Positions 27,209-44,097 of a stretch of 64,000 nucleotides of DNA are shown here, in pieces (position 1 is the first letter of the stretch; each line of letters starts with the position of its first letter). The stretch spans positions 710,727 through 774,726 of the forward strand of contig NZ_FSRB01000002.1 of the NCBI RefSeq assembly GCF_900129635.1, written 5' to 3'. The notes beneath the pieces are model-generated. The model did not search any database. It saw nothing but the letters and a program-made list of their open reading frames with translations, and had not been told where the DNA came from. The translations under genes and the position numbers were made by a program. The DNA comes from Singulisphaera sp. GP187. Its GTDB lineage: Bacteria; Planctomycetota; Planctomycetia; Isosphaerales; Isosphaeraceae.

Positions 27209-27600
27209 TTTTTTTAACGACCCGCCAAAGAGCTAAGAATCCCCCTCGTTCCCACGGTCCTCCGCTATGCCTTACCCACAAGTGGGGGTCTGGCCCGGTG
27301 TCCAGCGAGGGTGATCGGCGCAAGTGCCTGAGAGTCCTCCAGTTGTGGCATCCAGCTCGGGCCACAGCCCCCTTCCGTAACCTCCGGATTGCTAACAACT
27401 TACGACTTGTGGGTAAGGCATAGCGGTCCTCCGTGGGAATGCCGTCCTCGACGCTCCGCGTCGTCTGGCCCTCGCAAGCCGAGGCCGCAGAGCGTCCCAG
27501 ACTGCATTCCCACGGGGGACCGTGGGAACGAGTCGCGAGCGGCTTTCTCGCCCTGGATCGGGTCGTTGTTTTTTTGGACGGGCGAGCCTTTGAGCCCATC
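27209..27600. repeat. Long dispersed repeat, copy A (interrupted by a MITE)
   Basis: Shares CCCCCTCGTTCCCACGGTCC, the GACGCTCCGCGTCGTCTGGC block, CAGAGCGTCCCAGACT and CGCCCTGGATCGGGTC with copy B at 41547-41900. It contains palindromes of the CCCACGGGGGACCGTGGG kind. It is interrupted at 27265-27423. No gene is visible. Confidence 0.8.
27265..27423. mobile_element. 159-bp MITE-like element, 18-bp TIRs, 10-bp target duplication
   Basis: Ends are perfect 18-bp inverted repeats (CTATGCCTTACCCACAAG at 27265-27282 and its complement at 27406-27423). The direct repeat CGGTCCTCCG flanks it at 27255-27264 and 27424-27433. In copy B of the host repeat (41590s) the site occurs once, unbroken, which proves an insertion. 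Non-coding centre. A 10-bp duplication recalls IS4-like elements; family not confirmed. Confidence 0.85.
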
Positions 27601-28201: not shown

Positions 28202-28462
28202 CTTTGGGGTCTGGAAGACCAGGTCTAGCTCGGTGCTCTGCACCAGGGCGGCGTTGCGCCGCTCGAGCGTTTGGGGGTTCATGCGTCACAACGAAGGCTG
28301 TTTCAGACTCGCTATCGTCCGGAGGGCCTCGTAGTTCTTCGCGGGTCTGGATCAACCTCGCCGGTCGTGGTTCCGCGAAGAACTACGAGGCCCTCCGGAC
28401 GGCGAGTCAGAGAGCCTTCGATGTTCCAGGTCTAGTGGTAGACGATCTTCCAGACCTCTGAG
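28202..28462 (+). ncRNA. Retron msr-msd non-coding RNA
   Basis: All expected parts of a retron RNA are present in order. a1/a2 arms: GGTCTGGAAGA (28208-28218) pairs with 28446-28456, extended by G-U and G-C to 28206/28458 and further to 28202/28462 with one mismatch. A candidate branch guanosine lies in AGC at 28227-28229 (G28228). msr hairpins: GGTGC-TCT-GCACC (28232-28244) and GCGGCG-TTG-CGCCGC (28248-28262). msd: arms 28292-28299/28413-28420 (8 bp), 28306-28312/28402-28408 (7 bp) and a 29-bp perfect stem 28316-28344/28373-28401, with a 28-nt loop. The reverse-transcribed DNA would cover roughly 28285-28430. The RNA is on the same strand as, and 175 bp before, the operon ending in the RT. 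Folding is by eye. Confidence 0.85.
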
Positions 28463-28505
28463 AGCGGGCTGTCTCGATCCCTTTCGAGCAGCCCGCTTTC
28501 TTCTC
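28463..28505 (+). terminator. Terminator-like hairpin between retron RNA and operon
   Basis: AGCGGGCTG (28463-28471) pairs with CAGCCCGCT (28489-28497), then TTCTTCTC. It directly abuts the a2 arm. It may end the ncRNA transcript and let only part of the polymerases reach the protein genes, or act as an RNA end-stabiliser. Confidence 0.65.
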
Positions 28506-28637
28506 GTGGTCGTGGCGATTGGGAAATGAGCCTCATATCAGTCCGTGAGGTTGGCCTTGCCTGATTGGAGGTAAGGTCAAGGGGCAACAAGAGGCGGCTT
28601 CCCGATCATCTCCTACCTCCAGCGGGATTGGGCGACC

Positions 28638-31600
28638 GTGTCGATTCCCTTACGCTTGGCCGACGTGAGACTCGCCTGGGAGACCCAGGATCCCGACCTC
28701 GTCCGGCTCGTCGAGCGCCTGGCGGAGCAGTCGGACGACGACGACTCGGAAACGCCCGTTCGCGACGGGGCACCGACCTTCGCCAAGTTTCTGGCGGAGA
28801 TTCGCGGCAAGCCGTTTCGACGCAAGCCGCGGGTAGAGCAGGCGCACTACCGCGTCGAACAGGTCAAGGCGCTGGAGGCGGCGGACGCCGAGGTCCCCTT
28901 GCCCGACCGGCTTCGCCTGCACGAGGTGATCGACTCGCTCTGGCGCGACGACGGCCCCTACGCTCGCTCCTGCTTGCTGGCGATCATCGCCCGGGTGAAG
29001 CTCACTTACGGCCCTTGGCGGGCCCTGAAGCGGATCTTCAAAGAAGCCGAGGCTCGAGGCGATACCGAGGTCCTCGGCGCTCTGGCCGCGCGGTTCGATG
29101 CCGCCTACGCCAACCGCGACTACGAGGTCAGTCGCGACACGCTCATCTACCTCTGCCGCCGGGCCTGGCGGTACCTCAGGCGGACGGCGGTCACCCTCCC
29201 AGCCTGCTATGCCGACCTCGCCGGGGAAGTCCTCGCCTGGTATCCCGAGAGGACCAATTGGTCGGAGACCTGGGTTGCCAACCAGATCTTTCATCACGAG
29301 AGCGGCAAGTACAACCGGAGCAAGTTTTCCCTCTCCACCCGATCCGCGGATTTCTTGAAGGAGCGAGCATTCGCCGATCTCTGGAAGCGAACGCCACGCC
29401 CTTTGTTTAGCCTGCTGGAACGGGCGCGGAGCGATCGAGTCCGTGAGTTTGCGGCCGGCGCATTGAAGGCCGATTTTCGGGCCTCGATCCGCGAGATCGA
29501 ACCCGGGTGGGTGGCGCGTCTGGTCGACGTCGAGAGCCGGTCGATCGACGAGTTCGTGGTCTGGATCCTCAACAACGTGCCTCGGTTCGAGCAGGCCGCG
29601 TTTCGCACGCTCGGCCTCCACGACGCGGTGCTCAGGCTGTTCGACTCCCCCTCGCCCGAGGCCCGTGGCTACGCGGCCAACTACGCCCGGACCCATGCGC
29701 GGGACCTCCCGGTCGCGGAGCTCGTTCGCCTGGCCAACAACAATCATGTGGCCGTCCGAGGTCTTGCCGGCGACCTGCTGCTGGCACGCGATCCGCGCAA
29801 GGAGGTCGGGCTGGACGCCTGGGGGCAGCTCCTCGAAACGAGCTACGGCTACGAACTGGCCGGGACCGTGCTTCGCAAACATTTTGGAGGCCGCGAGCTG
29901 ACTCCCGAATGGTTCAAGGAACGCCTCTTCTCGCCGAGCCGGCAGTCGTTCCTGTTCGCCCAGGAACGACTCCCCGAAGTTCATCCGTATCAGAAGCTCG
30001 GAGTCCCCTTCTTTCGAGGGATGATCGAGGAGATCGAGCACCGGCCTACGTCGACCTTGCGCGCGGTCGCCTACGCGATGAGCCAGCTTGCGCGGTTTGA
30101 TTTGAATGAGCTCGACCCCCTCTTTCTCCAATGGCTGATCGTCCACCCGTTCACGAGCCGCACGGTGGCCGATTGGATCGACGCGGGAACGCTCAAGGCG
30201 AGCACCCTGCCGCTCGATTTTCTGAAGACCGTTGCGTTCCACCCGTCCTGGGAGGCCGACCCCTGGGTCGTCGCGCTCAAGCGGCAACACGACTGGGCCC
30301 GAACCCTCGAGTTCAACGAGGAGCTGGCCGACCGGGTGCTGAGCTGGCTCCGGGACGTCCGGCGGTTCTCGCCGGCGGATCTCGGTTTTGACTGGCTGTT
30401 CAAACTGGTGGTGCGGAGCGAGCCGCGATACCACAACTTTGCCGTCGAGACGATGATTCGCGGGTTCGTCCCGGCCGACTTCGCCCTGGAAAGTGCGGCG
30501 GCACCGACAACAGCACCGGCCCAGGCGAGCGAACCGGTGGCCGTCGACTTGAAGGGGGCCTCGTTTCTGTTCACGGGGAAGATGGCGACGATGCCTCGCA
30601 ACGAGGCGGAGGCCAAGGTCCGCCAAGCCGGAGGCGCGGTCGCGTCCGGGGTCACGGCGAAGCTGTATTACCTCGTCATCGGCGACGAGGGGTCACCGCT
30701 CTACGGGAGCGGTAAGAAGGGGTCGAAACAGCTCAAGGCCGAGGATCTCAACAACGCCGGCGCAAACATCAAGGTGATTTCCGAAACGGCTTTCTTGAAG
30801 ATGATGGCCGGTGAGCAACAGACGTTCTCCGCCGACACGACCCTCGCCGGTTGCGAGCGGCTCTGGGACATGGCGACCGCGCCGGGGCCCGGCGATGCCC
30901 CGCTCGCTCAGTTTGCTATCAAGTATCTCAGACGTCATCATTCCGACATTGCCCTGGCGGAGACGGACCGGCCGGTCGACCCCGGGGCGGAGATCCCGGC
31001 CGCCTTTTTGACGCTCGACCGGTTGCAGCCGCTCTTTTCCGAGAGTCGCAAGCCGCTCCGTGAGTTCGCCCTGGAGGTGGCCAACTGGGATTTCGCCCGC
31101 TGGTCGCCGTCGATCGAAGCGTTGATCAGCCTGGCGGAGGTCCCCTACCCCGAGGTTCGCCAGTTCGTGGCGAGGGCGCTGCTGGCCGACGAGGCGCCGG
31201 AGAACCGCCGGTTCCGGGTCCCTCCCGAAGTTTTGACCCCCTCCGCGGTCTACAGCTTCTGTGAGTCAGCCGACGAATCGACGCGTGATCTCGGCATGCA
31301 ACTGATTGCGCGATCGCCCCGGCTCCGGCTCCCCGAGGAGTTGTTCCGGCTGACGGAGAGCCCCGACCGCAAGATTCGTGCCTTCGTGATCCGGGCGCTC
31401 TGGTCGCTCTATCGCGATCGGGGGATTACCGAGGGGTGGAAGCCGGTCGTCCCGGCGCAGTCGACCGTGGGCCTCGCGGCAAAGAAGGCGGCCGCCAGCC
31501 TGGCCGAGTCCCGGGGCCATGGGGCTCCGGCCCGGCCCGAGAACTTGCCCTCGGTGCCGCTGAACCTCTGGAAGTTCCTCAGACGCACCCTCTTCGAGAT

Positions 31601-31892
31601 CCCTCCCGCCCGGCCCGAGGCGGTGAAGGACCAGGAGCCGGGGGGGGCCGAGCGACTCAAGCCGCTTCCGGCCCGCAAGGCCAAGCTGGCCCTCGTCGAG
31701 GTCATGAGAGACCTGGCGCTGGAAGAGAAGGGGTTCGCCCGGGGCGTGCTGCCGCTCCTCGAAGAGTTCCTGACCTCAAGGGGGCTGAGCGAGCGGGCGG
31801 CCTGCCTGGTCGCTGTGACCCGGATCCGCCACGCTCATCCCGAACTCGCCGGTCCCGATTCCGCCCGCCGCCATGAGGAGGCCGTCTCTTGA
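28638..31892 (+). CDS. Retron partner A: HEAT-like protein with internal BRCT domain
   Basis: 1084 aa from GTG 28638 (MSIPLRLADVRLAWETQDPD). Residues about 1-620 and 730-1084 are almost wholly helical with HEAT/ARM-like repetition ('EVRQFVARALLADEAPENRR', 'TRDLGMQLIARSPRLRLPEE', 'IRAFVIRALWSLYRDRG'). Residues about 635-715 form a BRCT domain: 'LKGASFLFTGKMATMPRNEA', 'VRQAGGAVASGVTAKLYYLV', 'GSGKKGSKQLKAEDLNNAG', 'KVISETAFLKMM'. Bacterial BRCTs (as in NAD ligase) bind DNA or DNA ends and nicks. First gene of the four-gene retron operon, overlapping the next by 4 bp (TTGA). I infer a scaffold that senses the RT-msDNA complex or damaged DNA. No nuclease motif is seen. Confidence 0.82.
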   Translation: MSIPLRLADVRLAWETQDPDLVRLVERLAEQSDDDDSETPVRDGAPTFAKFLAEIRGKPFRRKPRVEQAHYRVEQVKALEAADAEVPLPDRLRLHEVIDSLWRDDGPYARSCLLAIIARVKLTYGPWRALKRIFKEAEARGDTEVLGALAARFDAAYANRDYEVSRDTLIYLCRRAWRYLRRTAVTLPACYADLAGEVLAWYPERTNWSETWVANQIFHHESGKYNRSKFSLSTRSADFLKERAFADLWKRTPRPLFSLLERARSDRVREFAAGALKADFRASIREIEPGWVARLVDVESRSIDEFVVWILNNVPRFEQAAFRTLGLHDAVLRLFDSPSPEARGYAANYARTHARDLPVAELVRLANNNHVAVRGLAGDLLLARDPRKEVGLDAWGQLLETSYGYELAGTVLRKHFGGRELTPEWFKERLFSPSRQSFLFAQERLPEVHPYQKLGVPFFRGMIEEIEHRPTSTLRAVAYAMSQLARFDLNELDPLFLQWLIVHPFTSRTVADWIDAGTLKASTLPLDFLKTVAFHPSWEADPWVVALKRQHDWARTLEFNEELADRVLSWLRDVRRFSPADLGFDWLFKLVVRSEPRYHNFAVETMIRGFVPADFALESAAAPTTAPAQASEPVAVDLKGASFLFTGKMATMPRNEAEAKVRQAGGAVASGVTAKLYYLVIGDEGSPLYGSGKKGSKQLKAEDLNNAGANIKVISETAFLKMMAGEQQTFSADTTLAGCERLWDMATAPGPGDAPLAQFAIKYLRRHHSDIALAETDRPVDPGAEIPAAFLTLDRLQPLFSESRKPLREFALEVANWDFARWSPSIEALISLAEVPYPEVRQFVARALLADEAPENRRFRVPPEVLTPSAVYSFCESADESTRDLGMQLIARSPRLRLPEELFRLTESPDRKIRAFVIRALWSLYRDRGITEGWKPVVPAQSTVGLAAKKAAASLAESRGHGAPARPENLPSVPLNLWKFLRRTLFEIPPARPEAVKDQEPGGAERLKPLPARKAKLALVEVMRDLALEEKGFARGVLPLLEEFLTSRGLSERAACLVAVTRIRHAHPELAGPDSARRHEEAVS

Positions 31893-34800
31893 GCCTCGAG
31901 AAATTCCTCAACTACCGGGGGGACGTGAAGGCGATCGCCGGGGTCGGCCCGACCCTCGCGTTCGTGACCGTCCATCCCGAAGGACGAGCCACCGGGGTCT
32001 ACCGGCTCGACGCCGACAAGCTGAGCTTGGAGCTTGACCCGCTCCCAGGCGGCGGTGTGGTCGTGCTCGGCGATCCCGATGAGGAAACGCTCTGGGTCGG
32101 CGGGGAGGATGGGCAGGTTTACCGCGGCTCCGTGCGGGGTGGCACGCTCAAGCCGGTGGGACCAGCGCTTGGCTCGGCTCCGAAGGCGCTCGCGCTGTTG
32201 GCCGACGGCCGACTAGCCGTGCTCGTCGGTTCGCAGGTCGTCATCCTGATACGGAAGGATGGCAAGACGCTGCAAACCTTGGACCTGCCCGAGCCGGGCA
32301 CGGCGCTGGCGGCCGACCCGACCGGTCGCTGGCTGGCGGCCGGAACCGCCCAGGGAACGGTCGCGGTTTTCGATGTCGAGGACAAGCCCGAGTTCTTGCT
32401 GAGCGCTTCGGAGAAGCTCCACGAGGGGGCGGTCACCGCCCTTTTGTTCGAGCCGGAGGAACTGCGGTTTCTCTCGGCCGGTGCCGACCTGAAACTGTTG
32501 TCGACGCACGCTCGAGGCAAGCTCGAACCCGAAGACAAGGGCAAAGGGGCGACCCACACCGACCGGATCAGTGGCTTGATCTGGGGACCCGGCGACCGGC
32601 TCTACTCCGGCAGTCGTGACGGCACGATCAAGAACTGGCCGCGGTCCGGGGGCGCCCGCCCCGCCACGCTCAAGGACGGCGTGGCCAAAGTGGTGGCACT
32701 CACCCTCGTGCAGGTCCACGATCGGGCGCGGTTGGTGGTGGCCTGCGACGACAACACGCTCCGGTTCTTCACCCTGGACGCGGCGGGCAAGTTCGGCGAC
32801 CCGTCGCATCGGGTCGAAGGCGCGCACCGCAGGGCCCTGAACGAGCTGGCCCAGCCCGAAGCGCGGCAGCGCGAGGCGGCGATCGAGGAGCTGGCGACCT
32901 ACGACGATGCCACTTCCCTGGACTTGATCTCCGCCCAGGTCGGCCAGGACGCGGATCCGGCGCTGCGGCTCCTGGCGGTTCGGAAGCTCGGCGCGTCGAC
33001 GCACCCCCGCGCCGCGAAGCTCCTGGAGCCCTGGCTCGCCGCGACGGGCGAGGCGGTCCGGCTGGCGGCCCTCGAAGGGCTCCGCCGGCACATGGGGGAG
33101 ACCGACCTCAGGCCGCTCGACCTCGCGCTGAAGGTGGAGAAAGCCGACGTCGGCCGCGAGGCGGTCCGGGCCTTGGAGTCGCTCGCGAAGCAGGACGATC
33201 GCGCCTTCGCTCGGCTTCTGGAGACGCTCAACGCCAACCCGGCGGAAGTGCGTCAGGCGGCCCTGGCGAGCCTTGAAACCGTTTACGACCCGACGTCGCC
33301 CGAGGCGAGCCTGGTCGCGCTCAATTCCAAGCATGCCGACGTCAGGCGACTTGCGATCGTTCGCCTGTTTCAACGCGGGCTGCTCAAGGACCAGGGGGTG
33401 CAAACCGCGCTCCGTCGCCGGGGCGAGGACGATGATCCGGAGGTCCGTCGCACGGCCTTTCTGCTCTCGCTCTCGACCCGCGAACCGTTACTCGAGGCGT
33501 TGCGCCGCCGCGATCCCGACCTCCAGCGCCAGCTTCTCGAGCTCGAAGGAGCGCCCGCCGAGGAGGAGTCGAGCGAGAAGAAAGCCAGGCCGGCGAAACC
33601 GCGAGCCAAAGCCGCGAAGACCGAAGCGACCGAGTCGGCGCTCGAGGATGACGACTTCGCCCCGCTCTTGCAGGCGACGGCGAGCCGGGCCCTGGATACG
33701 AGCCTGCGCGGGGCGCGGGGCCTGGCCCTGCTCGGCGACCCCCGCGCCTTCGGCCTGCTGCTCCAACTGAGCCGCGAGGAGGATGCGCGGGCCCGCGTCG
33801 AGGTCTGCCTCGCCATGGCCGCGCTCGACGACCCCCGCGCGATCGAGCGGCTCCGCTCGTTGCTCCACGACCGCGAGCCCGAGGTGCGCGACGCCGCCTT
33901 CTCGGCCCTGGCTCAGATCCACCAGGCCGACCCGTTGCTCGGCGCGGAGTCGGGCCTGGGATCGTCGTTTGAAGATGTGCGGCGTCGTGGCTTGCAACTG
34001 TTGATCGCCGAGATTCGCAAGGCTCCCCCCCAAGGGACGGAGGGCCCTGCCCTGGCCCACCTCGCCCGTGCCTTGAACGACAGCTTTGAATCGGTCCGCA
34101 ACGAGGCGTTCAAGGCGACCTTGAACCTCCAACTGGCCGGAGGGGGGGCGTCGACACTTCGCTTCGTGGGGCGGAGCATCCATGCCGCCGTCCGTCGCGA
34201 GGTCTTGACCGAAGCGATGGCGCAGGTCAGCCAACCTTGGGGCTGGGACCTGCTCCTGGAATTCTTCAACGACCCCGACCCCACGCTCCGCGGCGATGCG
34301 TTCGAGTTCGCCACCAAGAAGACGAAGGGCCTCGAGTTCCTGGATGCCGGGCTCGGCTCGCGTCATCCCGACATCCGCAAGCGGTCGGTCGAGGCCCTGA
34401 TCAAGAAACGGACCAAGGCCGCGCAGGCCTTGCTCGTTCGAGCCGTGGGGGATGAGGACCGCGACGTCCGGCTGGCCGCTCTCGAGTCTCTGGTCGTGGC
34501 TGACGCTCGGCCCGAGCTTGCCGCGGCGCTCGCCAACCCCCACGCCGACGTCCGCCTGAGGGCGGCCCGCGCCCTGGCGGGCCATGGCGATGGGGCCGCG
34601 CTCGAACCGCTCGTCGCCCTGGCGACCGAACCGGAGCCGCTGGAAGCCGAGCGGAAAGGGGATTGGGCCAAGCGGGTCGAGCTGGCCCTCGACGGGCTCG
34701 GAGCGCTCGGATCTCCCGACGCCCTGACGACGATCATCCCTCAGCTCGACAGTCCGCACGGCTCGATCCGCGCCCAAGCGGCGGCGGCCTTGGTCTGGGT

Positions 34801-37800
34801 GGCCCGACCGGAAACGCTCGACGCCTTGCGGCAAGCGCTTGCGCATCCGGACCCACGGGTGAAGTACAACGCGGCCTTGGGCTTGGCCTATGCGGGCGAG
34901 TCGTCGGTGACGCCGATCGTGTTCTCAACGCAGGCCCGCGAGGTTCTCGACGCCCACCAACTCCTGGCGGCCGCCTTGGCGCTCGGGGCCGCAGGGGAGG
35001 ATCAACTCGTCGTCTTCCTTGATGACTCGAAGGGCGCGATCCGGTTCGAGGCGCTTCTGCTTCTGATGCTCCTGGAGTGGAAAGCACCGCGGGGGGCCGC
35101 CGCCCGGACCTTGGCCTGCCTCTCGAGCCGCACCCCGCGGGGCCGGCTCGTCGCCGCTCGAGCCTTGGAATGTCTGTCCGACCCAGCCGCCTTTCAGTCA
35201 TTTGTTGTTCACTTGATCAATGACCGGGATGACGAGCCGAGCCGGACGATCGCCGAATCGACGGTCGACGCCTTGGCGGAGCTGCTGGCGTATGGCACTC
35301 CCCTGGTCCGGGCTCGGACCGTGGGCCTGCTCGCGCACCTCCGCGAGAAGGAGCAGGCGGCCTGGGACCTGTCGTGGTCGGTCCACGCGTCGCGCTTCGC
35401 CCCTGAGATCGCGGCGCTTCGAACCGAGGCCAAGACGCGCCCAGGCGTGCCGTTGGCGTACGGCCGGAGCGAACTTCAGGAGCTGGCCTTCGGCGCGTAT
35501 GTGGGCCTGGTCCGCGAGCAAGGGGGTTCGTCGAACCGCAAGAAAAAAGGGAGCGGCGTTGACCCGCAGGTGATCCGGGTGCGGCAGACCGCGCTCGGTC
35601 GGCTGCTCGCCCTCGCCCAGACTGATCCGCATTTCGCCCGAGGGGCCGTTCCTGTCTTCATTCAAGCATTGGGTGATCCGAACCAGGCGGTTCGCCTCCA
35701 GGCGTTCGAGCAGTTGCAAACCCTGGGAGTGGACGCAACCCTGCTCGGCGCGGAGGCCCTGGGCGCGGGACACACCGACCTCGGGGTCAAGGGCCTCGAA
35801 GTCCTGACCCGCGGCGCGGCGGCCGCCGAAGGGCGGGCGATCCTCGAGCGAGTCATGCTCACGCGTCAGGACGAACTGGCGATCGAGGCCGCGCGGCTCC
35901 TGATCGAAGCTCAAGGACCGGTCGCCGTGGCCGGGCTGGCGCTGACGGCGGCCCACGAACCGTTACGGGAGCGCGCCGTCGCCTGGCTGGCCGCCGAGTA
36001 TGAAAAGGACGAAGCCGCCCGCGTCCGCTTGCGCGAGGCCCTGAACTCGCGCTACCAGCGGGTCCGCGAAGTCGCCGCGCTCGAGCTGGCGACGAAGAAG
36101 GATCAGGCCGCCTTCCCCGCGCTGGTGCGGTTGCTGGAGCACGCCCAACAGCCAGCCCCGCAGGTCAAGATCATCCGGGCGCTCGTGACCCTGGGCAATC
36201 CGCAAGTTCCCGACGCCCTGCTCGATCGTTTGCAAACCGACCCGAGCGGCACGGCGGCGGCCGACTCCTTGATTGCGTCGGCCGGCGGGTTCCGACGTCC
36301 CGAGAATGCCGATCGCCTGCTCGCCTTGATGGAGAACGATCGCAAGCGACGCGAGCTTGCGTTTGCGGCGGTGCTCACGATCAGCGGGTTCGATCAATAC
36401 ATCCCCGACCCTGAGGACGAGCAGGCCGACCGTCGCTGGGAGTCGGAGCAGTACCCGCGCCATCCCGAGATCATCGCCCGCCTGCTGGACCGTTGTTCGG
36501 CCCTGGGTGAACCTCGGCTCTTGAACCGGCTCATTCCCGGGGCGCGTTGGGCGCGTGCCAAAGTCGTGGACCCGGCCTTGGCGACCCTGGTTCTGCACCC
36601 CGACGAGGCGCTGCGCCGTGGCGTGGTCGAAGCCCTGGGCTGGCGGGTCCGCAAGCGGGCAAGCGATCCCGAACTGTTGCTGAAAGTGTTGTCGCATCAA
36701 GATCCGATCACCCAGTTCTTGGCCGCGGAGGCGCTGGCCAAAGGGGGGCGGACCGAAGGCTTGAACGTCTTGCTCGCCAGTCTCGACTTCGTGAGCGACT
36801 TGACCCTTCGCCGCCGCGCGGTCAAGGCGCTGGGCGAGCTCGGCGACGAGCGGGCCCTCGACACCCTGCTGCGGCTCGCGAGCGACCCGGGGCACGCCTT
36901 GCAGGAACAGGCGGCCGAGGCCATCGGCCACCTGGGGCGGTCGTCCCAAGGTGACGAGATTTTCAAGCTCTTGGAGCGATACACCAAGGCGGAGCAGGCT
37001 CTGCTCGCCGCCAACGCGGTGCGCGGGCTCCGCTGGCTCGACACCCGGGCCGGGTGGCAAGCCGTCCGCCGCGTGGCGCTCGAAGGCGATTCGTTGCCCG
37101 TCCGCGGGACGGCCTTGGAGATGCTCGGGTTCAATGACGATCCGGCGACTCGCGACCTGCTGCTCCGCCAGCTCGCTGGCGGAGACGAAGACGGAGACGC
37201 GAACGACGTGACGCACCTGTTCAATCTGACCCTCGCCAGTGCCCGGCGTCTGTTCGGCCCCGATTCGCTCGAACCCGACTACGCGCTCTTGCGGAACCCG
37301 GAGCTCGACGACGAAGCCGAGCAGCGCAAGGCGGTGGCCCGAGTCTGCGAACGGGGCGAAGCGAGTCCGATCTTCGAGATCGTGACGAAGGCGTCGCGCG
37401 AGGTGCAAGCGTTGTTGACGACCCAACTCCTGAACCGCCCCAGTCTCCCGCTGGAGGCGGCCTGGGTCGCTCTCGAACGCCCCGAGGCGCCGGCCGTCGA
37501 GCTGGCGGCCCGGGTCCTGGGCCGGGCGGGTCAAGCGGCCAAACCGAAGGTCGCTGCCCTCGAAACGGTCCTGCCGAGGTGGCGCGACGCCTGGGAAGAG
37601 TGCCGGCGCAAGAGCGAACGCGGCGAGGACGACGCGACCGAACGACTGGCTGAGTCGCTCACCCCTTGCGTCCGGATCCTGGTCTGGGCGGCGGGCCGGC
37701 TGGGCACGGCGCGGGAGACCCTGTTGGAAATGGCCGAGGCCCGCGCCGGCGATCGCGCCTACCGGCCGATCCGGCTCGAGGCCGTGACCGCCTTGGCCGC

Positions 37801-38296
37801 TTGGAAACCAACGCCCGCCATTGCGGCCGCCCTGGAGCGGGCCGCGCTGGGCGACGACCCCGAGCTCCGTGGGTTTGCGGCTTCGGCCGCCGGCCGCGTG
37901 GGGGGGGATCTGGCCGCTCGTCTGGTCGGCCCGTTCCTATCGGACCGGGTGACCTTTTCTCGGGTCGTCAAGAACAAGGAGGTCGAGGCGGCAGGGCCGG
38001 CGCGGTTGGCTGCTGCTCGGATCCACGAACAAGGGGTTGTGCTTCCCTACTTGGTCGCTCAGGCCGATGTCGAAGGCCTGACTGCCGTGATGGAAGATCG
38101 AAGCTTGTCTACACCCACCCGCCTGGGGGCCGTGGAGGCGCTGGCCAAGCTGGGCCGGGAGGATGCCGAGGAGCGGCTCCGGACCCTCGGCGCGGCGGCT
38201 GATGACGATGAAGACCTGCGCAAGGCGGCCTGGCGCGGTCTTCGGCGATCGAAACGGGCTCGCGTGAAAGCCGCTGGATCCGAGGTGCGCTCATGA
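31889..38296 (+). CDS. Retron partner B: giant WD40 plus HEAT-repeat protein
   Basis: 2135 aa. TTG 31889 overlaps the stop of partner A. Residues about 1-310 are a beta propeller with WD40-like blades ('GAVTALLFEPEELRFLSAGA', 'DRISGLIWGPGDRLYSGSRD', 'TIKNW'). From about residue 320 to the end come some forty HEAT-type helical pairs ('DPALRLLAVRKLGASTHPRA', 'DPRAIERLRSLLHDREPEVR', 'DPVLA'-like turns), with one acidic/lysine-rich break near 560-590 (EESSEKKARPAKPRAKAAK). This would be a very long solenoid. No enzymatic motif is seen. ATGA overlap with the next gene implies translational coupling. Type XIII retrons are recalled to carry an ARM/HEAT protein, which fits. Cytoplasmic. Confidence 0.85.
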   Translation: MSLEKFLNYRGDVKAIAGVGPTLAFVTVHPEGRATGVYRLDADKLSLELDPLPGGGVVVLGDPDEETLWVGGEDGQVYRGSVRGGTLKPVGPALGSAPKALALLADGRLAVLVGSQVVILIRKDGKTLQTLDLPEPGTALAADPTGRWLAAGTAQGTVAVFDVEDKPEFLLSASEKLHEGAVTALLFEPEELRFLSAGADLKLLSTHARGKLEPEDKGKGATHTDRISGLIWGPGDRLYSGSRDGTIKNWPRSGGARPATLKDGVAKVVALTLVQVHDRARLVVACDDNTLRFFTLDAAGKFGDPSHRVEGAHRRALNELAQPEARQREAAIEELATYDDATSLDLISAQVGQDADPALRLLAVRKLGASTHPRAAKLLEPWLAATGEAVRLAALEGLRRHMGETDLRPLDLALKVEKADVGREAVRALESLAKQDDRAFARLLETLNANPAEVRQAALASLETVYDPTSPEASLVALNSKHADVRRLAIVRLFQRGLLKDQGVQTALRRRGEDDDPEVRRTAFLLSLSTREPLLEALRRRDPDLQRQLLELEGAPAEEESSEKKARPAKPRAKAAKTEATESALEDDDFAPLLQATASRALDTSLRGARGLALLGDPRAFGLLLQLSREEDARARVEVCLAMAALDDPRAIERLRSLLHDREPEVRDAAFSALAQIHQADPLLGAESGLGSSFEDVRRRGLQLLIAEIRKAPPQGTEGPALAHLARALNDSFESVRNEAFKATLNLQLAGGGASTLRFVGRSIHAAVRREVLTEAMAQVSQPWGWDLLLEFFNDPDPTLRGDAFEFATKKTKGLEFLDAGLGSRHPDIRKRSVEALIKKRTKAAQALLVRAVGDEDRDVRLAALESLVVADARPELAAALANPHADVRLRAARALAGHGDGAALEPLVALATEPEPLEAERKGDWAKRVELALDGLGALGSPDALTTIIPQLDSPHGSIRAQAAAALVWVARPETLDALRQALAHPDPRVKYNAALGLAYAGESSVTPIVFSTQAREVLDAHQLLAAALALGAAGEDQLVVFLDDSKGAIRFEALLLLMLLEWKAPRGAAARTLACLSSRTPRGRLVAARALECLSDPAAFQSFVVHLINDRDDEPSRTIAESTVDALAELLAYGTPLVRARTVGLLAHLREKEQAAWDLSWSVHASRFAPEIAALRTEAKTRPGVPLAYGRSELQELAFGAYVGLVREQGGSSNRKKKGSGVDPQVIRVRQTALGRLLALAQTDPHFARGAVPVFIQALGDPNQAVRLQAFEQLQTLGVDATLLGAEALGAGHTDLGVKGLEVLTRGAAAAEGRAILERVMLTRQDELAIEAARLLIEAQGPVAVAGLALTAAHEPLRERAVAWLAAEYEKDEAARVRLREALNSRYQRVREVAALELATKKDQAAFPALVRLLEHAQQPAPQVKIIRALVTLGNPQVPDALLDRLQTDPSGTAAADSLIASAGGFRRPENADRLLALMENDRKRRELAFAAVLTISGFDQYIPDPEDEQADRRWESEQYPRHPEIIARLLDRCSALGEPRLLNRLIPGARWARAKVVDPALATLVLHPDEALRRGVVEALGWRVRKRASDPELLLKVLSHQDPITQFLAAEALAKGGRTEGLNVLLASLDFVSDLTLRRRAVKALGELGDERALDTLLRLASDPGHALQEQAAEAIGHLGRSSQGDEIFKLLERYTKAEQALLAANAVRGLRWLDTRAGWQAVRRVALEGDSLPVRGTALEMLGFNDDPATRDLLLRQLAGGDEDGDANDVTHLFNLTLASARRLFGPDSLEPDYALLRNPELDDEAEQRKAVARVCERGEASPIFEIVTKASREVQALLTTQLLNRPSLPLEAAWVALERPEAPAVELAARVLGRAGQAAKPKVAALETVLPRWRDAWEECRRKSERGEDDATERLAESLTPCVRILVWAAGRLGTARETLLEMAEARAGDRAYRPIRLEAVTALAAWKPTPAIAAALERAALGDDPELRGFAASAAGRVGGDLAARLVGPFLSDRVTFSRVVKNKEVEAAGPARLAAARIHEQGVVLPYLVAQADVEGLTAVMEDRSLSTPTRLGAVEALAKLGREDAEERLRTLGAAADDDEDLRKAAWRGLRRSKRARVKAAGSEVRS

Positions 38297-40176
38297 GTGA
38301 CGAGATCCCGAGCGACGAGACCGCGACCACTCCGACCTCGGAACCGGCCGGGCCCGAGCATGTCGAGGTGCACCTCACCTATGCCGGGGCGAGTGCGCTG
38401 GTGGCTGCGGGGGAGACCGCGGAGCTGGCCCTGGCCGGCAACATCCGCCGCGCTCCCGTTCGGTTTGAGGCGACCCTCAAGGATCCGCTCCGGTTTCGCG
38501 AAGCGATGTCGGCCCTGTATGCGGTGGTCGGCAGTGACTATCGCTACGTGCCCAAGGATCGGACCGCGTACGTCGCCTTTCTGCGGATGCGCCGCGAGTC
38601 GGCCGGTCAGGGGCTCTGGCAGGCGCAACGGGCCTATTTTTCGTGGCTGTTGCGCAACGACCCGTTGGCCTACCTGATCCTCGACCCCGTGATCACGGTC
38701 CATCCCGACCAGGTTTTCTTCGAGGTCTTCAGCAAGGACGAGGGGGCCTATGCCAAGCTCGGCATCGACCGGGACGCCTTCGATCAGGCGGGGGAACCAA
38801 CCCACGGCACCACCAACATCGACTTCAGCCAGGCCCTTTTTGCCGGCCTCCAGCAGTTGCGGAGCTACCGTGAGACCAGGCTGAGCCTGGGCCGGGACGG
38901 GGTGAAGGTGGCCACGGCCACGGTCGGTGAAGTGCTCGAGAAGCAGATCCGGGTCCCCGACTCCTGGCTTCGTGGCTTCCTCCAGGTGCAGTCGGCCGCG
39001 GCCCTGCCGATGGAGACGTTCTCGCTCGCGCCGATGGATCTTTATAACGTGTTGCGTCAGCTTCGGCTCCAGGCCGATCGCAAGGGGCAGCGTCGCGGCC
39101 TGCGGATCGAGCTGGTTCCTGGGGAGGCGCCCCGGCTCGTCATGGAGCCCTGGGAGCTGGTCGTCCCGTCCACAAGCGGGATTTACAAGGGGAAGGCGGC
39201 CAAGGTCGTGCGCGTCTGGGGCCGGCGGCGGCTCTCGGCCTTGCGACGGTTCCTTCCCTTCGTCGATCAGGTCGACGTCGCGCTCCTGGGCAGTGGCCTC
39301 CCGAGCTTCTGGATCCTCCGTGGTGGCGGCTTCTCGCTCACGTTGGGGCTGACCGGCTTCACGGCGGCCAACTGGTCGCAGGCGATCAGCTTCGACCTGC
39401 TCCTGCCGCGCAAGACGCAGTCGACGCCCGCGCTGGATGCGGTGCTTGGCCACCTCGAGAAGCGCTGGTCGGCGGGCGCGGGGGAACTCGCCAAGTCGAC
39501 CGGCCTGAAGTGGCCCGCGCTCCTCGAAGCGGTTCAACTCGGCTGCCAGCAGGGTAAGCTGATGTATGACATTGCCGCGAATGTTTATCGGTTCCGCCCC
39601 TTGACCGATGACCCGCTCGACCTGACCCGCCTGGAGTATCGCAACCCGCGCGAGCGGATCGCCCATGACTTATTGGTTCGGCGTGGTGCGGTCAAGATCG
39701 TCACCGAGAACCGGATCCCGGCCACCGGCCTGGAGCTGACCGGCAAGGTCGTCGTCGAGGAAGACCGGCGCGAGTATCGCCCCCAGTTACTCATGGCCGA
39801 TGAGGGGCAAGTGACCCGTGCGGATTGCACCTGCCCCGCCTTCCGCAAGCAGGGTTTGAAAGCCGGCCCTTGCGTCCACCTGATCGCCCTCCGACTGGCC
39901 TACGCCGAGCAAGAGGCGAGACGGCTCAAGGGGGGCGATCCGAAGCAAGCGATCACCGTCGAGACCCGGACCTACAGCCGGCGTGACCCGGCCGGCGAAG
40001 AGGTCCATCAGGTCTCGTTGGAGCGCCGACGGCTGCGGATCCGCTGGGGGCGAGCCGGGGTCCCCCCTCGTTTGCAAACCCTGACGTTCGACACTCTCGA
40101 CGAAGCGCGGACCGCCTACCTCGCCCGGATCGGCGAGCTGGACGCCCGTGGCTTCCTCGACGCCACGGCGGGATGA
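38293..40176 (+). CDS. Retron partner C: winged-helix / SWIM zinc-finger / WGR protein
   Basis: 627 aa. ATG 38293 overlaps the previous stop. The N-terminal 350 residues are unassigned alpha/beta. Residues about 385-450 look like a winged helix ('LDAVLGHLEKRWSAGAGELA', 'LLEAVQLGCQQGKLMYD'). A SWIM zinc finger is exact: Cys512-x-Cys514, then Cys527-x-His529 in 'PCVHLIALRLAYAEQEARRL'. The C-terminus is a WGR domain with 'RIRWGRAG' (Trp585-Gly586-Arg587), the DNA-sensing motif known from PARP1. So this protein should bind nucleic acid at two or three places. The RT gene starts 7 bp after it. In recalled retron classification the winged-helix-SWIM protein defines type XIII. Confidence 0.88.
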   Translation: MSDEIPSDETATTPTSEPAGPEHVEVHLTYAGASALVAAGETAELALAGNIRRAPVRFEATLKDPLRFREAMSALYAVVGSDYRYVPKDRTAYVAFLRMRRESAGQGLWQAQRAYFSWLLRNDPLAYLILDPVITVHPDQVFFEVFSKDEGAYAKLGIDRDAFDQAGEPTHGTTNIDFSQALFAGLQQLRSYRETRLSLGRDGVKVATATVGEVLEKQIRVPDSWLRGFLQVQSAAALPMETFSLAPMDLYNVLRQLRLQADRKGQRRGLRIELVPGEAPRLVMEPWELVVPSTSGIYKGKAAKVVRVWGRRRLSALRRFLPFVDQVDVALLGSGLPSFWILRGGGFSLTLGLTGFTAANWSQAISFDLLLPRKTQSTPALDAVLGHLEKRWSAGAGELAKSTGLKWPALLEAVQLGCQQGKLMYDIAANVYRFRPLTDDPLDLTRLEYRNPRERIAHDLLVRRGAVKIVTENRIPATGLELTGKVVVEEDRREYRPQLLMADEGQVTRADCTCPAFRKQGLKAGPCVHLIALRLAYAEQEARRLKGGDPKQAITVETRTYSRRDPAGEEVHQVSLERRRLRIRWGRAGVPPRLQTLTFDTLDEARTAYLARIGELDARGFLDATAG

Positions 40177-40183
40177 ACCCCAG

Positions 40184-41488
40184 ATGAGCAGGACCACCAG
40201 TCGGACCAACGACCCGATGACCCTCTGGCGTGCGATCGAGCAGGCCGGCGGCACGCAGGCCTACGTCGAGGCTCAACTCGCCGAGCGCGGATTCCTGGTC
40301 AAGCGGCGCGAGACCGACAAGATGTCGGAGCGCGAGCTCGATGCCTACAAGAAGTCGCTCAAGGCCGAGGCGAAGGAGAAGCGGGCGCTTCAGGCCGACG
40401 CCTGGCGGGCCTACAAGACGAGCCACATCGTCTACCTCGGCGAAGGGATCTTCTGGAAGGATGATCCCGGCGGCCCCGATAAGTGGGACCTTCCCCATGC
40501 CGAGGAACGCGCGGCCGAGAACGAGCTCCCCCCTTTGGACTCGCCCCGGCAACTGGCCGAGGCCCTCGAGCTGAGCCTGTCCGAGCTCCGCTGGCTGGCC
40601 TTCCACCGCGACGCGGCGACCCGAATCCACTACCGCCGGTTCACGATCCCCAAGCGTGACGGCTCTGAACGTGCGATCTGGGCACCCATGCCGAAGCTGA
40701 AAAGTGCTCAGCATTGGATCCTTCGAAATATCGCCGAGAAGCTTCTCGTCCATGGCTCGGTCCACGGCTTCCTGCCGGGCCGCTCCACCTTGACCAACGC
40801 GGCGGCGCACGCCAACCCGAAGGTCGTGGTCAAGATGGACATCAAAGACTTCTTTCCGACCGTCACCCTACCCCGCGTGCGCGGAATCTTCCGCAAGGCG
40901 GGCTACCGCGAGCAGGTCGCCACCCTGCTCGCTCTGATATGCACCGAGTCGCCACGCGAGGTCGTCGAGCATGACGGCCAGACCTATTACATCGCACTCG
41001 GCCCGCGCTGTCTCCCGCAAGGCGCTCCCACCAGCCCGGCCTTGACGAACACGCTCTGTCTTCGGATGGATCAACGCCTCAGCGCCCTGGCAAAGCGGTT
41101 CGGCTGGCGGTACACCCGCTACGCCGACGACCTGACCTTCAGCCTGCCCCACGACCACAAGGATCAACCGAGGCTCGGCGCCCTGGTCGGCACGGTGCGG
41201 CGGGTCGTCGAGGCCGAAGGGTTCACCATTCATCCGAGCAAGACCCGCGTCGCCCGCTCCGGGGCCAGGCAGACGATCACCGGCCTGGTCGTCAACGGCG
41301 ACCAGGCCCCCCGCGCCCCCCGAAAGTTCCGCCGCGAGCTTCGCGCTGCCATCCACAACAGCCGCAACGGCAAACCCTTGCATGAAGGCGAGTCGCCCAC
41401 CACCTTGGCCGGTTCCGCAGCTTATGTGTACATGACCGATCCTGAACTTGGCGCGAAGCTGCTCGACGCGATCAAGCAAGAGGCTTGA
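40184..41488 (+). CDS. Retron-type reverse transcriptase
   Basis: 434 aa from ATG 40184; an upstream in-frame GTG at 40148 would overlap partner C. Residues about 1-140 are an N-terminal helical extension. RT motifs: 'KRDGSERAIWAP', 'VHGFLPGRSTLTNAAAHANP' with the retron-specific NAxxH (Asn205-His209), motif A 'VKMDIKDFFPT' (Asp219), 'LPQGAPTSPALTN', motif C 'RYADDLTFS' (Tyr313, Asp315, Asp316), and the region-Y triplet Ile365-Thr366-Gly367 in 'TITGLVVN', a variant of the retron VTG. These set it apart from group II intron RTs; no maturase or endonuclease domain follows. Template is presumably the RNA at 28202-28462. Last gene of the operon. The RT is after its partners, unlike many retrons in which it comes right after the RNA. 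Confidence 0.92.
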   Translation: MSRTTSRTNDPMTLWRAIEQAGGTQAYVEAQLAERGFLVKRRETDKMSERELDAYKKSLKAEAKEKRALQADAWRAYKTSHIVYLGEGIFWKDDPGGPDKWDLPHAEERAAENELPPLDSPRQLAEALELSLSELRWLAFHRDAATRIHYRRFTIPKRDGSERAIWAPMPKLKSAQHWILRNIAEKLLVHGSVHGFLPGRSTLTNAAAHANPKVVVKMDIKDFFPTVTLPRVRGIFRKAGYREQVATLLALICTESPREVVEHDGQTYYIALGPRCLPQGAPTSPALTNTLCLRMDQRLSALAKRFGWRYTRYADDLTFSLPHDHKDQPRLGALVGTVRRVVEAEGFTIHPSKTRVARSGARQTITGLVVNGDQAPRAPRKFRRELRAAIHNSRNGKPLHEGESPTTLAGSAAYVYMTDPELGAKLLDAIKQEA

Positions 41489-41546
41489 AGCTTTTTAGAA
41501 ATGATATGTGTTTTTGTAGTGTGGGGACGGCCCACCACGTTCCGTT

Positions 41547-41900
41547 TTCAACGGCCCACCAGAGAGCGAGGAATCCCCCTCGTTCCCACGGTCCTCCGTG
41601 AGAATGCCGTCCCCGACGCTCCGCGTCGTCTGGCCGTGGCAAGCCGAGGACGCAGAGAGATTGTGATTTTTTTAATCGGAAACTCGACTATAGAGGTCCA
41701 AATTCATTGGATCGATCTTCAGTCGGAGTTTGAAGCTCGAGAGAGGCATCAAAAGTCTGTACTTTTGCACCCATTTTACGTCTGTCGTATGAAAAAATCA
41801 CAACCTCAGAGCGTCCCAGACTTCATTCCCACGGGGGACCGTGGGAACGAGTCGCGAGAGGCTTCCTCGCCCTGGATCGGGTCATTGAAAAAAAACGGAA
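41547..41900. repeat. Long dispersed repeat, copy B (interrupted by a different MITE)
   Basis: Homologous to 27209-27600 across the blocks listed there. Uninterrupted at the 27265 site, but broken at 41658-41806. It fills most of the 41489-41982 gap. The left edge (ACGGCCCACC) joins the family seen at 17678. Confidence 0.8.
41658..41806. mobile_element. 149-bp MITE-like element, 15-bp TIRs, CAGAG target duplication
   Basis: The left end AGATTGTGATTTTTT and the complement of the right end AGGTTGTGATTTTTT differ at one base. CAGAG flanks it at 41653-41657 and 41807-41811. The matching site in copy A (27488-27492) has a single CAGAG and no insert. The element is AT-rich against its surroundings and has no gene. 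Confidence 0.85.
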
Positions 41901-44097
41901 ACGCCTTCGGTCGTAAGGCTTCGTAGGCCAGTCATCCCGGCAATTCGCAGAGCCGAAGGGGCAACCGACCGTCAGTGTCGGATCAAGGCTTGGCTGAGGA
42001 TATGGTCCCCAGAACCGGAGCCGCGTCGAACGGTTCGGGCGTGGGCTCGACCAGGCTATTGTCGTGGACGAGGGTGCCTTGTGGCCCGACGAAGAAGCTT
42101 TGCCCGTCGGCAACCTCGAGATTGAACACCGGCTGAACCGCTTCGTACTTGATCGAGAGGACCTTCGCCACGCCGTTGAGCGTTCGAATGGTATCGCCGG
42201 GGGTGAGGTCGCGGGCCATCGTCCAGCCCTTCCCCGCCTTCCAGAAGCGATGGATTCCGGTGGCGATGGTCGACTCCCCCTCTCCCTCCAGTTCGAGCCG
42301 GAGGGTTGCCGCGGGCGGGTTGTGGAAGACGGCCAAGACGGGATCAAAGTTTAACGTCCCGGTCCGGGTGTTCTGCGAGAGGACCCGGTCGCCGACCTGG
42401 ATCGACTCGATCTTGCGGAGGCCGTCCAAGGTATGAACCAATGTGCCCGCCCCGAAGCACGAGTGATGAGTCAGGACCACGGGCGGTTCTATCATCTGGG
42501 TAAACGTGGGTTTGGACTCGGGGTCGAGCTCGGTGGACTTGTACTGATAACCTTGCTGGTCACTCCACCAGGTCCTCCACGCGTCCTGATTTTCACCCAG
42601 TTCCTGACCGGTGACTGATTCGAGGACGGGAAGAGCCAGCATGTTTCTCGCATGAGTGGTCGTGTTGACGGCCACGATCTCGTTGACGTCGTTGATGAGC
42701 TTGGCCTGCGCGACGTCGGCGTCGCGTTGAGACGCGTTCACGACGTTGGCAATTTGGGCGTCGCGGCGGACCGCAGCCCCCGTCGCCGCCAGGACCGGGG
42801 AAGCGGTGCCGTTCACGCCGTTGCGTCCGAACTGTCCCGCGAGAATCCCGACCGCGGCACTCGGGTTGTTGACGATGCCTTTCACGCTCGCGGCCGAAAC
42901 GGTGCCCGTGGGGGCGCCCGGCGCGCCGTTCGCCAGCCAGAGATTTTGGGGGGTGAAGGGCTCGAAGGGGATCGAGGAATCAAACAAGCGCGGTGGGATT
43001 CGCTCGAACGGGATCGGTTGCGTGGTGTAGACCCGTCGCACGTTGAATTGCTTGCCTTCAATGAAGAGGACCCCTTGGCTGCCGGGTCCGTTCACCGGCC
43101 GCACTTCATACTTGATCGGGTCGCGCAGAAGCTCGACCAGGAGGGTGACGAAGTCGCGCGGGTCGCGTCGTTTGAGGGTCTCGGTCGCCACCCGCCGGAC
43201 CTCGGCCGATTTGCCGAAGACCGAGAGGGTCGCCAGGGCCCGCGAGGCGGTCCCCGCGTCGATCTGGCCGAGCATCTGGACCGCGACGAGTTGTCGGGCC
43301 GCGTCACCGGAGGCGAAGAGCGCCCAGATCATCGGCACCGCGCGCGGGTCGGTCACCTCGGTCAGCCGCCGCTCCGCGATCTCCCGGGTGCGGCTCTCCG
43401 GCAGTCGTTCCCGCCATTTCTCGAGGAGCGGCCGCCAGTGCCGATCGGCCTTTTTTTGTTCTTCGACGTTCCGCTTGAGGGTGGCGATCTGCTCTTCGGT
43501 CATCCAGCGACCGTCCTGCTTCTTGCAACCCAACCGCTTCCAGGCGGCGTCACGCGCGGGGTCCAGCCGGGTCACGGCCGTCAGGTGTGCGGTCGCCTCG
43601 GCCTTCAGGCCGTGCTTCTCGCACCAGAGGGCCAGGTCCCAGTGCCCGTCGGCCGTACGGTGCATCGTTTCCCGCTTCGCGTTGTATTCGGCGAGGGTGG
43701 CGGTCAAGGTGGCGTCGGCCCGCACCTTGTCGCGGATCGTCTCGGGGCGCTGCCACTGGCCGCCATAAGAGACCAGGCCCATCAGGCCACGCGCCACGGA
43801 GTGTTTGGGCTCGGTCACGACGGCGATGGCCAGGTGCTTGAGCCGCTCGGCCTGGAGCCCGTGCTCCTCGCACCAGAGCGCGAGCTTCACATGCGCATTG
43901 GGATCGCGGCCCACCGTTGCGCTGGCCGTCTCGTAGGATTTTAGGTCTTCGGCAAGTGAACTTGAGCGGCTTTCGGGGCTGGCCGCTATCAAAATGGTAC
44001 CGACGAGAAGCGTGCCAAGCATCGCGAGTCCTCCGCCAATCGAAGCCGGATAAGACATGTCCCTGCTGATCCTATCGAGCCCCCAGGAACGAAACAA
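41898..44097. repeat. 2.2-kb duplicated block (partner copy 53347-55541)
   Basis: The block holding the Hint-domain gene occurs again at 53347-55541 in the same orientation, offset 11,444 bp with no indels across the coding part. By comparing translations in several frames, about 42665-43916 is identical to 54109-55360; both edges carry scattered substitutions. Confidence 0.88.
41983..44022 (-). CDS. Secreted repeat protein with C-terminal Hint domain, copy 1
   Basis: 679 aa. ATG 44022 is chosen because GGAGG lies 7 nt upstream and gives a signal peptide (MLGTLLVGTILIAASPES); an upstream ATG at 44058 is possible here but is a Thr codon in copy 2. Residues about 30-170 are TPR-like ('LALWCEEHGLQAERLKHLAI', repeated twice more), then a HEAT-like stretch ('VAVQMLGQIDAGTASRALAT'), a Gly/Asn-rich linker and, from Cys522, a Hint (hedgehog/intein) module: 'CFGAGTLVHTLDGLRKIESI', 'VGDRVLSQNTRTG', 'TGIHRFWKAGKGW', 'PGDTIRTLNGVAKVLSI', 'SFFVGPQGTLVHDN'. 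Hint domains self-cleave proteins. Only about 25 residues follow, so no toxin is released. Confidence 0.82.
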   Translation of the reverse strand: MLGTLLVGTILIAASPESRSSSLAEDLKSYETASATVGRDPNAHVKLALWCEEHGLQAERLKHLAIAVVTEPKHSVARGLMGLVSYGGQWQRPETIRDKVRADATLTATLAEYNAKRETMHRTADGHWDLALWCEKHGLKAEATAHLTAVTRLDPARDAAWKRLGCKKQDGRWMTEEQIATLKRNVEEQKKADRHWRPLLEKWRERLPESRTREIAERRLTEVTDPRAVPMIWALFASGDAARQLVAVQMLGQIDAGTASRALATLSVFGKSAEVRRVATETLKRRDPRDFVTLLVELLRDPIKYEVRPVNGPGSQGVLFIEGKQFNVRRVYTTQPIPFERIPPRLFDSSIPFEPFTPQNLWLANGAPGAPTGTVSAASVKGIVNNPSAAVGILAGQFGRNGVNGTASPVLAATGAAVRRDAQIANVVNASQRDADVAQAKLINDVNEIVAVNTTTHARNMLALPVLESVTGQELGENQDAWRTWWSDQQGYQYKSTELDPESKPTFTQMIEPPVVLTHHSCFGAGTLVHTLDGLRKIESIQVGDRVLSQNTRTGTLNFDPVLAVFHNPPAATLRLELEGEGESTIATGIHRFWKAGKGWTMARDLTPGDTIRTLNGVAKVLSIKYEAVQPVFNLEVADGQSFFVGPQGTLVHDNSLVEPTPEPFDAAPVLGTISSAKP

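Follow-up and report, generated by a model that had tools for sequence, protein, structure and literature searches.

The stretch of DNA analysed here (hereafter the window) comprises 64,000 nt of Singulisphaera sp. GP187 (NZ_FSRB01000002.1:710,727-774,726, forward strand) and carries, at positions 28202-41488, a retron made of a non-coding RNA (ncRNA) and an operon that ends in a reverse transcriptase (RT) gene. Retrons are defence elements of bacteria, and the molecules that they produce are small hybrids of DNA and RNA. This locus is, with near certainty, a complete type XIII retron, and it belongs to a distinct four-protein variant whose ncRNA genes, in many related genomes, are dispersed in up to 28 copies that share a conserved framework and differ in a perfectly paired stem. 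The explanation that best accounts for these observations overall, and on which we would place an even bet, is that of a four-protein type XIII defence retron in which the duplexes of the multicopy single-stranded DNA (msDNA) serve as baits and have diversified in some lineages.

A complete four-protein type XIII retron

The operon (28638-41488) consists of four open reading frames (ORFs) on the plus strand, with neighbours overlapping or almost abutting. The first (28638-31892) encodes a HEAT solenoid of 1084 aa with a BRCT domain inserted at about residues 635-720, and matches the PADLOC model HEAT-ARM_XIII over nearly its full length (1274 bits), while the second (31889-38296) encodes a giant WD40-HEAT scaffold of 2135 aa that matches HEAT-ARM_XIII PDLC02919 over residues 4-2130 (2468 bits). 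The third (38293-40176) encodes a protein of 627 aa with a predicted sliding-clamp-like fold, a winged helix, a SWIM zinc site and a C-terminal WGR domain, and matches SWIM_XIII nearly in full (653 bits). The fourth (40148-41488) is a retron RT of 446 aa in whose translation the NAxxH, YADD and ITG motifs are all present, and which scores 551 bits against RT_XIII (E 5.6e-166), the next family reaching 319 bits. Pfam thresholds were met by SWIM, HEAT_2, WD40 and RVT_1 in whole-protein scans, and by BRCT (27.1 bits, cut-off 21.3) and WGR (22.6 bits, cut-off 22) when these regions were scanned alone. Type XIII is defined here by the PADLOC models, and we assign the locus to it because all four proteins match these models almost over their full length. 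The protein architecture per se is not new, since the models already cover proteins of such length and kind. A first-pass annotation, made from the letters of this DNA, had described four overlapping or nearly touching genes on one strand ending in an RT with these three motifs, had named the partners as HEAT-BRCT, 2135-aa WD40-HEAT and SWIM-WGR proteins, and had proposed a type XIII or closely related retron; the ORFs were found where it had placed them, Pfam and PADLOC agree on the partners, and the PADLOC scores of all four proteins, together with the RT tree, bear out the proposed type.

The annotation had also read an RNA with retron a1-msr-msd-a2 architecture ahead of the operon, and we regard a covarying ncRNA with paired a1 and a2 strands and that architecture as virtually certain, judging from its fold and its homologues. 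It adjoins the operon, 430 nt upstream and on the same strand, and the region 28202-28540 folds with an energy of -196 kcal/mol, compared to -135 kcal/mol (standard deviation 6) for shuffled sequences (z -10.2). In this fold the a1 strand (GGTCTGGAAGA, 28208-28218) pairs with the a2 strand (TCTTCCAGACC, 28446-28456), a pairing that recurs across copies. Past a1 lies a TCTAGC motif (28224-28229), conserved as YYAGC in the ncRNA copies, whose G28228 we take to be the candidate branching G by analogy with Ec86. It is followed by msr stem-loops 1 (28232-28244) and 2 (28246-28264), both of which show compensatory changes across copies, and by the msd hairpin region with its 3' part (28287-28452), which scores 151.7 bits against our covariance model R1. 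The stem of the long hairpin is a perfect inverted repeat of 29 bp, with a 5' arm at 28316-28344 and a 3' arm at 28373-28401, whose sequence is unrelated to those of other copies and relatives; the arms are separated by a terminal loop conserved in the alignment (CTGGnnCAACCnCGCC..TCG.GGTTCC, 28345-28372). Because a hairpin resembling an intrinsic terminator (approximately 28463-28497, with a T-rich tail up to 28505) follows straight after a2, the ncRNA is probably a transcription unit of its own.

Sequence searches found homologues of this ncRNA in other four-gene loci; one apparent match, at L142, was rejected as it was not confirmed by the covariance model, and an Rfam search returned no match. 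Two motifs that flank the msd keep a spacing of 136-138 nt across homologues, while the basal part of the stem varies with compensation (CGAAG/CTTCG, GGAAG/CTTCC, GGACGG/CCGTCC). In an alignment of ten homologues, 30 of the 41 pairs show two-sided changes, the covariation score of 0.50 exceeds both the 0.18 of shuffles and the 0.20 that slid alignments reach at most, and 84.8% of the cells are paired, as opposed to 66.3% in shuffles and 34-53% in slid versions.

The four-gene variant forms a clade of its own

Scanning GTDB genomes with the SWIM protein yielded 80 loci, 43 of which form a close group with the WGR region (one of them, L109, is interrupted by the contig end). Wherever the contig reaches, the order HEAT(-BRCT), WD40-HEAT, SWIM-WGR, RT is kept, and the partners accompany the RT at all four-gene loci where the contig is long enough to include them. 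In the tree, the window's RT groups with type XIII retron RTs, and the 43 four-gene RTs make up a single clade with 100/100 support; that the four-gene variant is a distinct clade is therefore close to beyond doubt. Its hosts are Planctomycetota, Myxococcota (Nannocystis, Minicystis, Byssovorax), Gammaproteobacteria (Thiothrix, Cocleimonas) and one member of the Acidobacteriota. The BRCT domain is missing in two independent cases (L094/L044 and L099), and the other loci of the 80 are three-gene type XIII retrons without WD40-HEAT protein and WGR domain. Since none of the genes downstream of the RT is conserved over the 29 loci compared, we consider the system to be made of the ncRNA and the four proteins. 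Two downstream DUF4365 genes in the window (44688-45689), weakly similar to Mrr, were considered as missing nuclease effectors and rejected, being absent from all other loci.

Among the four-gene relatives, the ncRNA may be found downstream of the operon (L043, L108), behind ParA/ParB-like genes (L044), or megabases away. In L044 (2272-4618), a planctomycete locus, these ParA- and ParB-like genes separate the ncRNA from the four-gene operon, and a tyrosine-recombinase-like ORF lies downstream, so that the whole may be a plasmid or an integrative element.

Dispersed ncRNA genes in related genomes

When covariance model R1 was run over the whole genomes of 41 four-gene carriers, matches were found in 38, and 21 of these hold between 2 and 28 copies, the highest numbers being those of genomes G394 (28), G397 (18), G404 (14), and G395 and G399 (13 each). 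Each multicopy genome tested has exactly one close RT. In the family of G399, the ncRNA is present in 11 of 61 genomes and a close RT in all 11 (in G403 via locus L079); G470, assembled as a single 9.0-Mb contig, has 13 ncRNA copies and one four-gene RT; and in Nannocystis the RT and the copies are megabases apart. The ncRNA of three-gene type XIII retrons served as a control: its model R2 has a single match in 22 of 25 genomes, and the three second matches lie close by or overlap the first. The existence of multicopy ncRNA genes in trans is thus hardly in question. The first-pass annotation was right on the placement of the retron RNA beside the operon in the window, and missed that in relatives this RNA is separable, amplified and hypervariable.

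It also appears likely that most of the dispersed copies are functional. Each copy pairs its a1 specifically with its own a2, the helix scoring 16.3 for true partners and 10.2 (standard deviation 0.3) for swapped ones (84 copies). The promoter-like pattern TTGNNN-N15-18-TANNNT precedes the branch motif by about 50 nt in 34 of 83 copies, compared to 2.0 in shuffled sequences and none at a control position, and the 68 nt after a2 fold at -33.1 kcal/mol on average, as opposed to -21.8 in control stretches (84 copies). The copies are intergenic and lie between ordinary genes. An association with tRNA genes was considered and rejected, as a tRNA was found within 1.5 kb at just 2 of 40 loci. Among the individual copies, L190 (G399 C2:1544312-1544403) lacks the variable stem and loop, with ends, msr and terminator intact, and tandem pairs of ncRNA genes approximately 330-360 bp apart occur at L156, L165, L169, L171 and L175 (Limnoglobus roseus and several Nannocystis).

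Hypervariable stems rich in dyads

Within a genome, the msd framework of the copies is 80-86% identical, whereas the 26-nt arms are 31-34% identical, approximately what chance gives for their composition. The form of the stem is kept: it is perfect over 27 bp in 66 of 83 Gemmataceae-type copies and has at most one mismatch in 82 of the 83, and the msd measures 164-166 nt in 86 of 88. Ten pairs of copies are positional orthologues, in that the genes flanking them to the left and right are homologous (62-93% amino-acid identity), and their stems are nonetheless unrelated, with an arm identity of 0.38 at the best of five offsets, compared to 62-93% for the framework, where the low values probably come from one-base shifts. 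Palindromes of at least 8 bp are present in 46 of 78 distinct stems, when 5.0 are expected (maximum 13 in 300 draws) from GC-matched genomic 26-mers of the same loci, and palindromes of at least 12 bp in 16 stems, when 0.3 are expected; direct repeats in the arms are not enriched. Examples of such dyads are GAAGTCGAATTCGACTTC, GGGCGACAATTGTCGCCC and CCTCGAAGTACTTCGAGG, and the same half-sites recur in two different genomes as GCTCCTGA-ACGT-TCAGGAGC and GCTCCTGA-TTAG-TCAGGAGC. Based on these comparisons, the stems are almost surely hypervariable and enriched in dyads.

Three chimeric copies might indicate how the stems are renewed. In each, the loop, the 3' arm and the lower stem are those of another copy in that genome and the 5' half is not, the shared part being 64 nt for L215/L214, 60 nt for L252/L249 and 31 nt for L209/L197. 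This common part is the one that would be reverse transcribed first, which fits a replacement of one arm at a time mediated by cDNA, although with three cases this is no more than suggestive. Two Thiothrix genomes have stems that agree in their lower half and diverge, in both arms, in the upper one.

A predicted sliding-clamp fold in the SWIM-WGR protein

The AlphaFold2 model of the SWIM-WGR protein was built on an alignment of 36 sequences, and reached a predicted local distance difference test score of 83.5 and a predicted template modelling (TM) score of 0.84. In a Foldseek search with this model, the best 50 matches in the PDB were all sliding clamps (PCNA, DnaN), with E values of 7e-7 to 6e-6, probability 1.00 and TM scores of 0.39-0.69 normalised to the target. 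By inspection of the secondary structure, the clamp-like part covers approximately residues 20-355, and is followed by a winged helix at about 379-434, the SWIM site and the WGR domain. The model thus makes it very likely that the N-terminal part adopts a PCNA/DnaN-like sliding-clamp fold, and because the conserved core of the SWIM protein is common to the three-gene members, such a fold is probably general to type XIII. Where the first-pass annotation spoke of a winged-helix-SWIM partner, the SWIM domain is supported by Pfam and a winged-helix-like element by the AlphaFold2 model, and the predicted clamp had escaped it. The model of the HEAT-BRCT protein is a HEAT solenoid interrupted by the BRCT domain, and matched HEAT scaffolds only. 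Our literature search found no paper naming type XIII together with SWIM or WGR domains, and no relevant paper tying retrons to sliding clamps. No effector is known for type XIII, and the clamp-like fold of its SWIM protein would be a first mechanistic lead.

Proposed mechanism and alternative explanations

In the mechanism that we propose, the RT would prime at the branching G and copy each msd into an msDNA made of a constant base, a constant loop and a blunt duplex whose length is fixed at about 27 bp. Held by the scaffolds and the clamp-like protein, this duplex would be sensed by its shape and ends (through BRCT, WGR and clamp) and not by its sequence, which would leave the sequence of the stem free to vary; constant length, perfect pairing and free sequence indeed fit a complex that reads the shape and ends of a duplex and exposes its sequence as bait. 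An invader's DNA-binding, recombining or methylating protein might then bind, cleave or modify the bait, disturb the complex and so turn the response on, for which a first candidate, and a guess, is that the clamp-like protein interferes with replication. Lineages under pressure would keep a repertoire of baits, whose arms would be renewed one at a time as templates are switched or copies convert one another. A function in phage defence is likely, by family. A bait role of the msDNA stems is a conjecture that we rate somewhat below even, and tentative, too, is the idea of an RT-based innate repertoire, where a single complex would be served by up to 28 msDNAs with dyad-bearing baits of about 27 bp, renewed by RT-linked replacement of arms. 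The suggestion made in the first-pass annotation, of a system that watches msDNA or damaged DNA, is compatible with this mechanism.

We acknowledge that several observations weigh against this explanation. The window's genome has a single R1 copy, and for this reason the idea of a repertoire does not directly apply to it. Nannocystis stems are shared between species, a single difference being matched by a compensating one in the opposite arm, and hypervariability is therefore not universal. The dyads could stem from how the arms are rewritten and not from what binds them. Pfam and fold searches of the partners returned scaffold, clamp-like and DNA-binding parts only, with no nuclease or toxin domain, in agreement with the first-pass annotation, which had seen no toxin or nuclease motif, and our literature search found no experimental report of phage defence by type XIII. 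Nor did the stems lead to a target. A search of INPHARED phages with 30 stems gave no match, and a search of IMG/VR with four patterns gave one match of 20 nt inside a coding gene and one of 18 nt in a phage terminator, a number at about the level of chance, so that their being phage-derived spacers is unsupported. Full-length stems did not occur elsewhere in G399 either, and we reject an origin from host sequences as far as full-length sites in this genome are concerned, degenerate matches not having been searched.

Four other explanations deserve to be weighed. The locus could be an ordinary type XIII retron with one msDNA, its dispersed copies being functionless relics of retrotransposition or recombination. 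Such a view, of retrotransposition, was taken in 1997 of the dispersed RT-less repeats of Retron-Nex1 (Ne160) (Lampson and Rice 1997, cited in PMC6868368), and a few copies are indeed broken (L190, without a stem, and L209, L252 and the 154-nt L215 copy, with mismatched arms). Most copies, however, keep the exact length, near-perfect stems, an a1/a2 helix of their own and signals resembling promoters and terminators, none of which would survive decay; some copy positions are conserved between genera, and the boundaries of the copies are those of whole transcription units and not of the msDNA. We therefore find relics improbable. The msDNAs could otherwise act as decoys for host regulators, in gene regulation and not in defence, given that the stems resemble the operators of dimeric regulators and that the copies are intergenic with individual promoter-like signals. 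The lack of a second full-length stem in G399, with the above limit as to degenerate operators, speaks against it, as does the complete turnover of stems at orthologous loci, which is unlike host operators, and we judge this explanation very improbable.

The remaining two concern how the stems vary and what the complex reads. Dyads and hypervariability might both be by-products of template switching by the RT or a host polymerase, with selection acting on length and pairing only. Switching between complementary arms, or between copies, would write inverted repeats; the three chimeras share the half that is copied first, and L222 and L234 have 14-16 nt in common before closing into different palindromes. 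What such a process does not explain is the upkeep of many ncRNA genes and the recurrence of half-sites, as 10-mers are shared in 14 cross-genome pairs compared to 3.1 (maximum 8) after shuffling, in shuffles that do not preserve palindromes; on balance we consider it rather unlikely. In PARP-type proteins, the BRCT and WGR domains read DNA breaks, and with the clamp-like fold, the constant stem length and the perfect duplex they would also suit a damage sensor, formed by the clamp, BRCT and WGR proteins together with msDNA, that halts replication once DNA ends are exposed by phage or host, and to which the sequence of the stem would be irrelevant. Such a sensor leaves the enrichment in dyads and the multicopy repertoire unexplained, and BRCT is missing in L044/L094 and L099, and hence it seems to us unlikely.

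Relation to known systems

Three-gene type XIII retrons share with the four-gene form the RT family, a SWIM homologue with the conserved core, a HEAT/ARM partner and a retron-like ncRNA with a perfect variable stem and a fixed loop. They differ in that they have a single ncRNA per genome, placed between the SWIM gene and the RT, no WD40-HEAT protein and a SWIM protein without WGR, whereas the four-gene form has its own RT clade and an ncRNA that lies outside the operon and is often multicopy. The closest precedent for the latter is Retron-Nex1 (Ne160) of Nannocystis exedens with its dispersed msDNA-like repeats (Lampson and Rice 1997, cited in PMC6868368), msr-msd copies without a nearby RT that were read as retrotransposition. 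In N. exedens DSM 71, three R1 copies lie far from the four-gene operon that this strain carries, and we infer that Retron-Nex1 is probably the same system. The 1997 account concerns one species, while here many genomes are involved, with up to 28 copies and hypervariable, dyad-rich, perfect stems; the copy-specific a1/a2 helices, the promoter-like signals of individual copies and the tie to the four-protein type XIII operon also go beyond it.

In other retrons, msDNA senses a phage methylase, single-stranded DNA-binding protein (SSB) or nuclease (PMC12548924, PMC13158370): a phage Dcm-like methylase acts on the Ec86 stem, SSB binds in Eco8, and the triggers of Squ1 and Asa1 are adenine methylases (PMC13158370, PMC12548924). 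Eco1 (Ec86), Eco8 and Squ1/Asa1 resemble the present system in using the msDNA hairpin as a switch, and differ from it in that their ncRNA is single and their effectors (NAD hydrolase, OLD nuclease and others) are known, and in lacking a repertoire and clamp-like or HEAT partners. The likeness to diversity-generating retroelements (DGRs) is one of analogy only, both combining a constant framework with hypervariability linked to an RT. In DGRs the mutations fall on adenines of a target that codes for protein, whereas here a non-coding stem is replaced while its arms stay complementary; the RT is a retron RT according to PADLOC, and no DGR parts turned up, although a template repeat/variable repeat pair and Avd were not searched for directly.

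As far as we could check, the link of the dispersed repeats to four-protein type XIII retrons, their scale and the hypervariable, dyad-rich stems on a conserved framework are new, and so are the chimeric copies, the clamp-like fold and the way in which the three-gene form differs. A 2026 commentary calls the relation between the sequence of an msDNA and what the retron recognises unclear (PMC13158370), and a natural experiment on this point may exist, with one complex and one framework combined with up to 28 stems per genome in dozens of genomes. Should the stems prove to be baits, the DNA sites of the sensed proteins could be read from the dyads, and triggers would become predictable; bacteria would also possess a diversified repertoire that belongs to neither CRISPR nor DGRs. 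For genome engineering, the trans-acting msr-msd scaffolds, whose stems are exchangeable, would in addition offer a natural set.

Other features of the window and its genome

Behind the retron, the last 100-185 bp or so of the RT gene (window 41306-41490) recur as remnants at 44228-44412 and 46066-46220, which are 84% identical to their source and 97% to each other. They are interleaved with a PT-HINT gene (41983-44115, minus strand) and the two DUF4365 genes, in what looks like repeated rearrangement. The retron region is also flanked by a repeated intergenic sequence (window 27211-27568 and 41545-41887), with blocks of 54-84 bp that are 89-94% identical and 14.2-14.3 kb apart, and with related inverted copies, which may mark the edges of a mobile or recombining unit. 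Elsewhere in the same genome there is a second type XIII retron, of the three-gene form (L042, C5:230686-231909), whose RT is approximately 45% identical and which has an ncRNA-like hairpin between the SWIM gene and the RT. A further group of RTs (L062-L067), scoring about 350 bits against RT_XIII and including one from the window's own genome (L066, C5:4006135-4007142), is found about once in nearly every genome of a planctomycete family (f2), as if vertically inherited.

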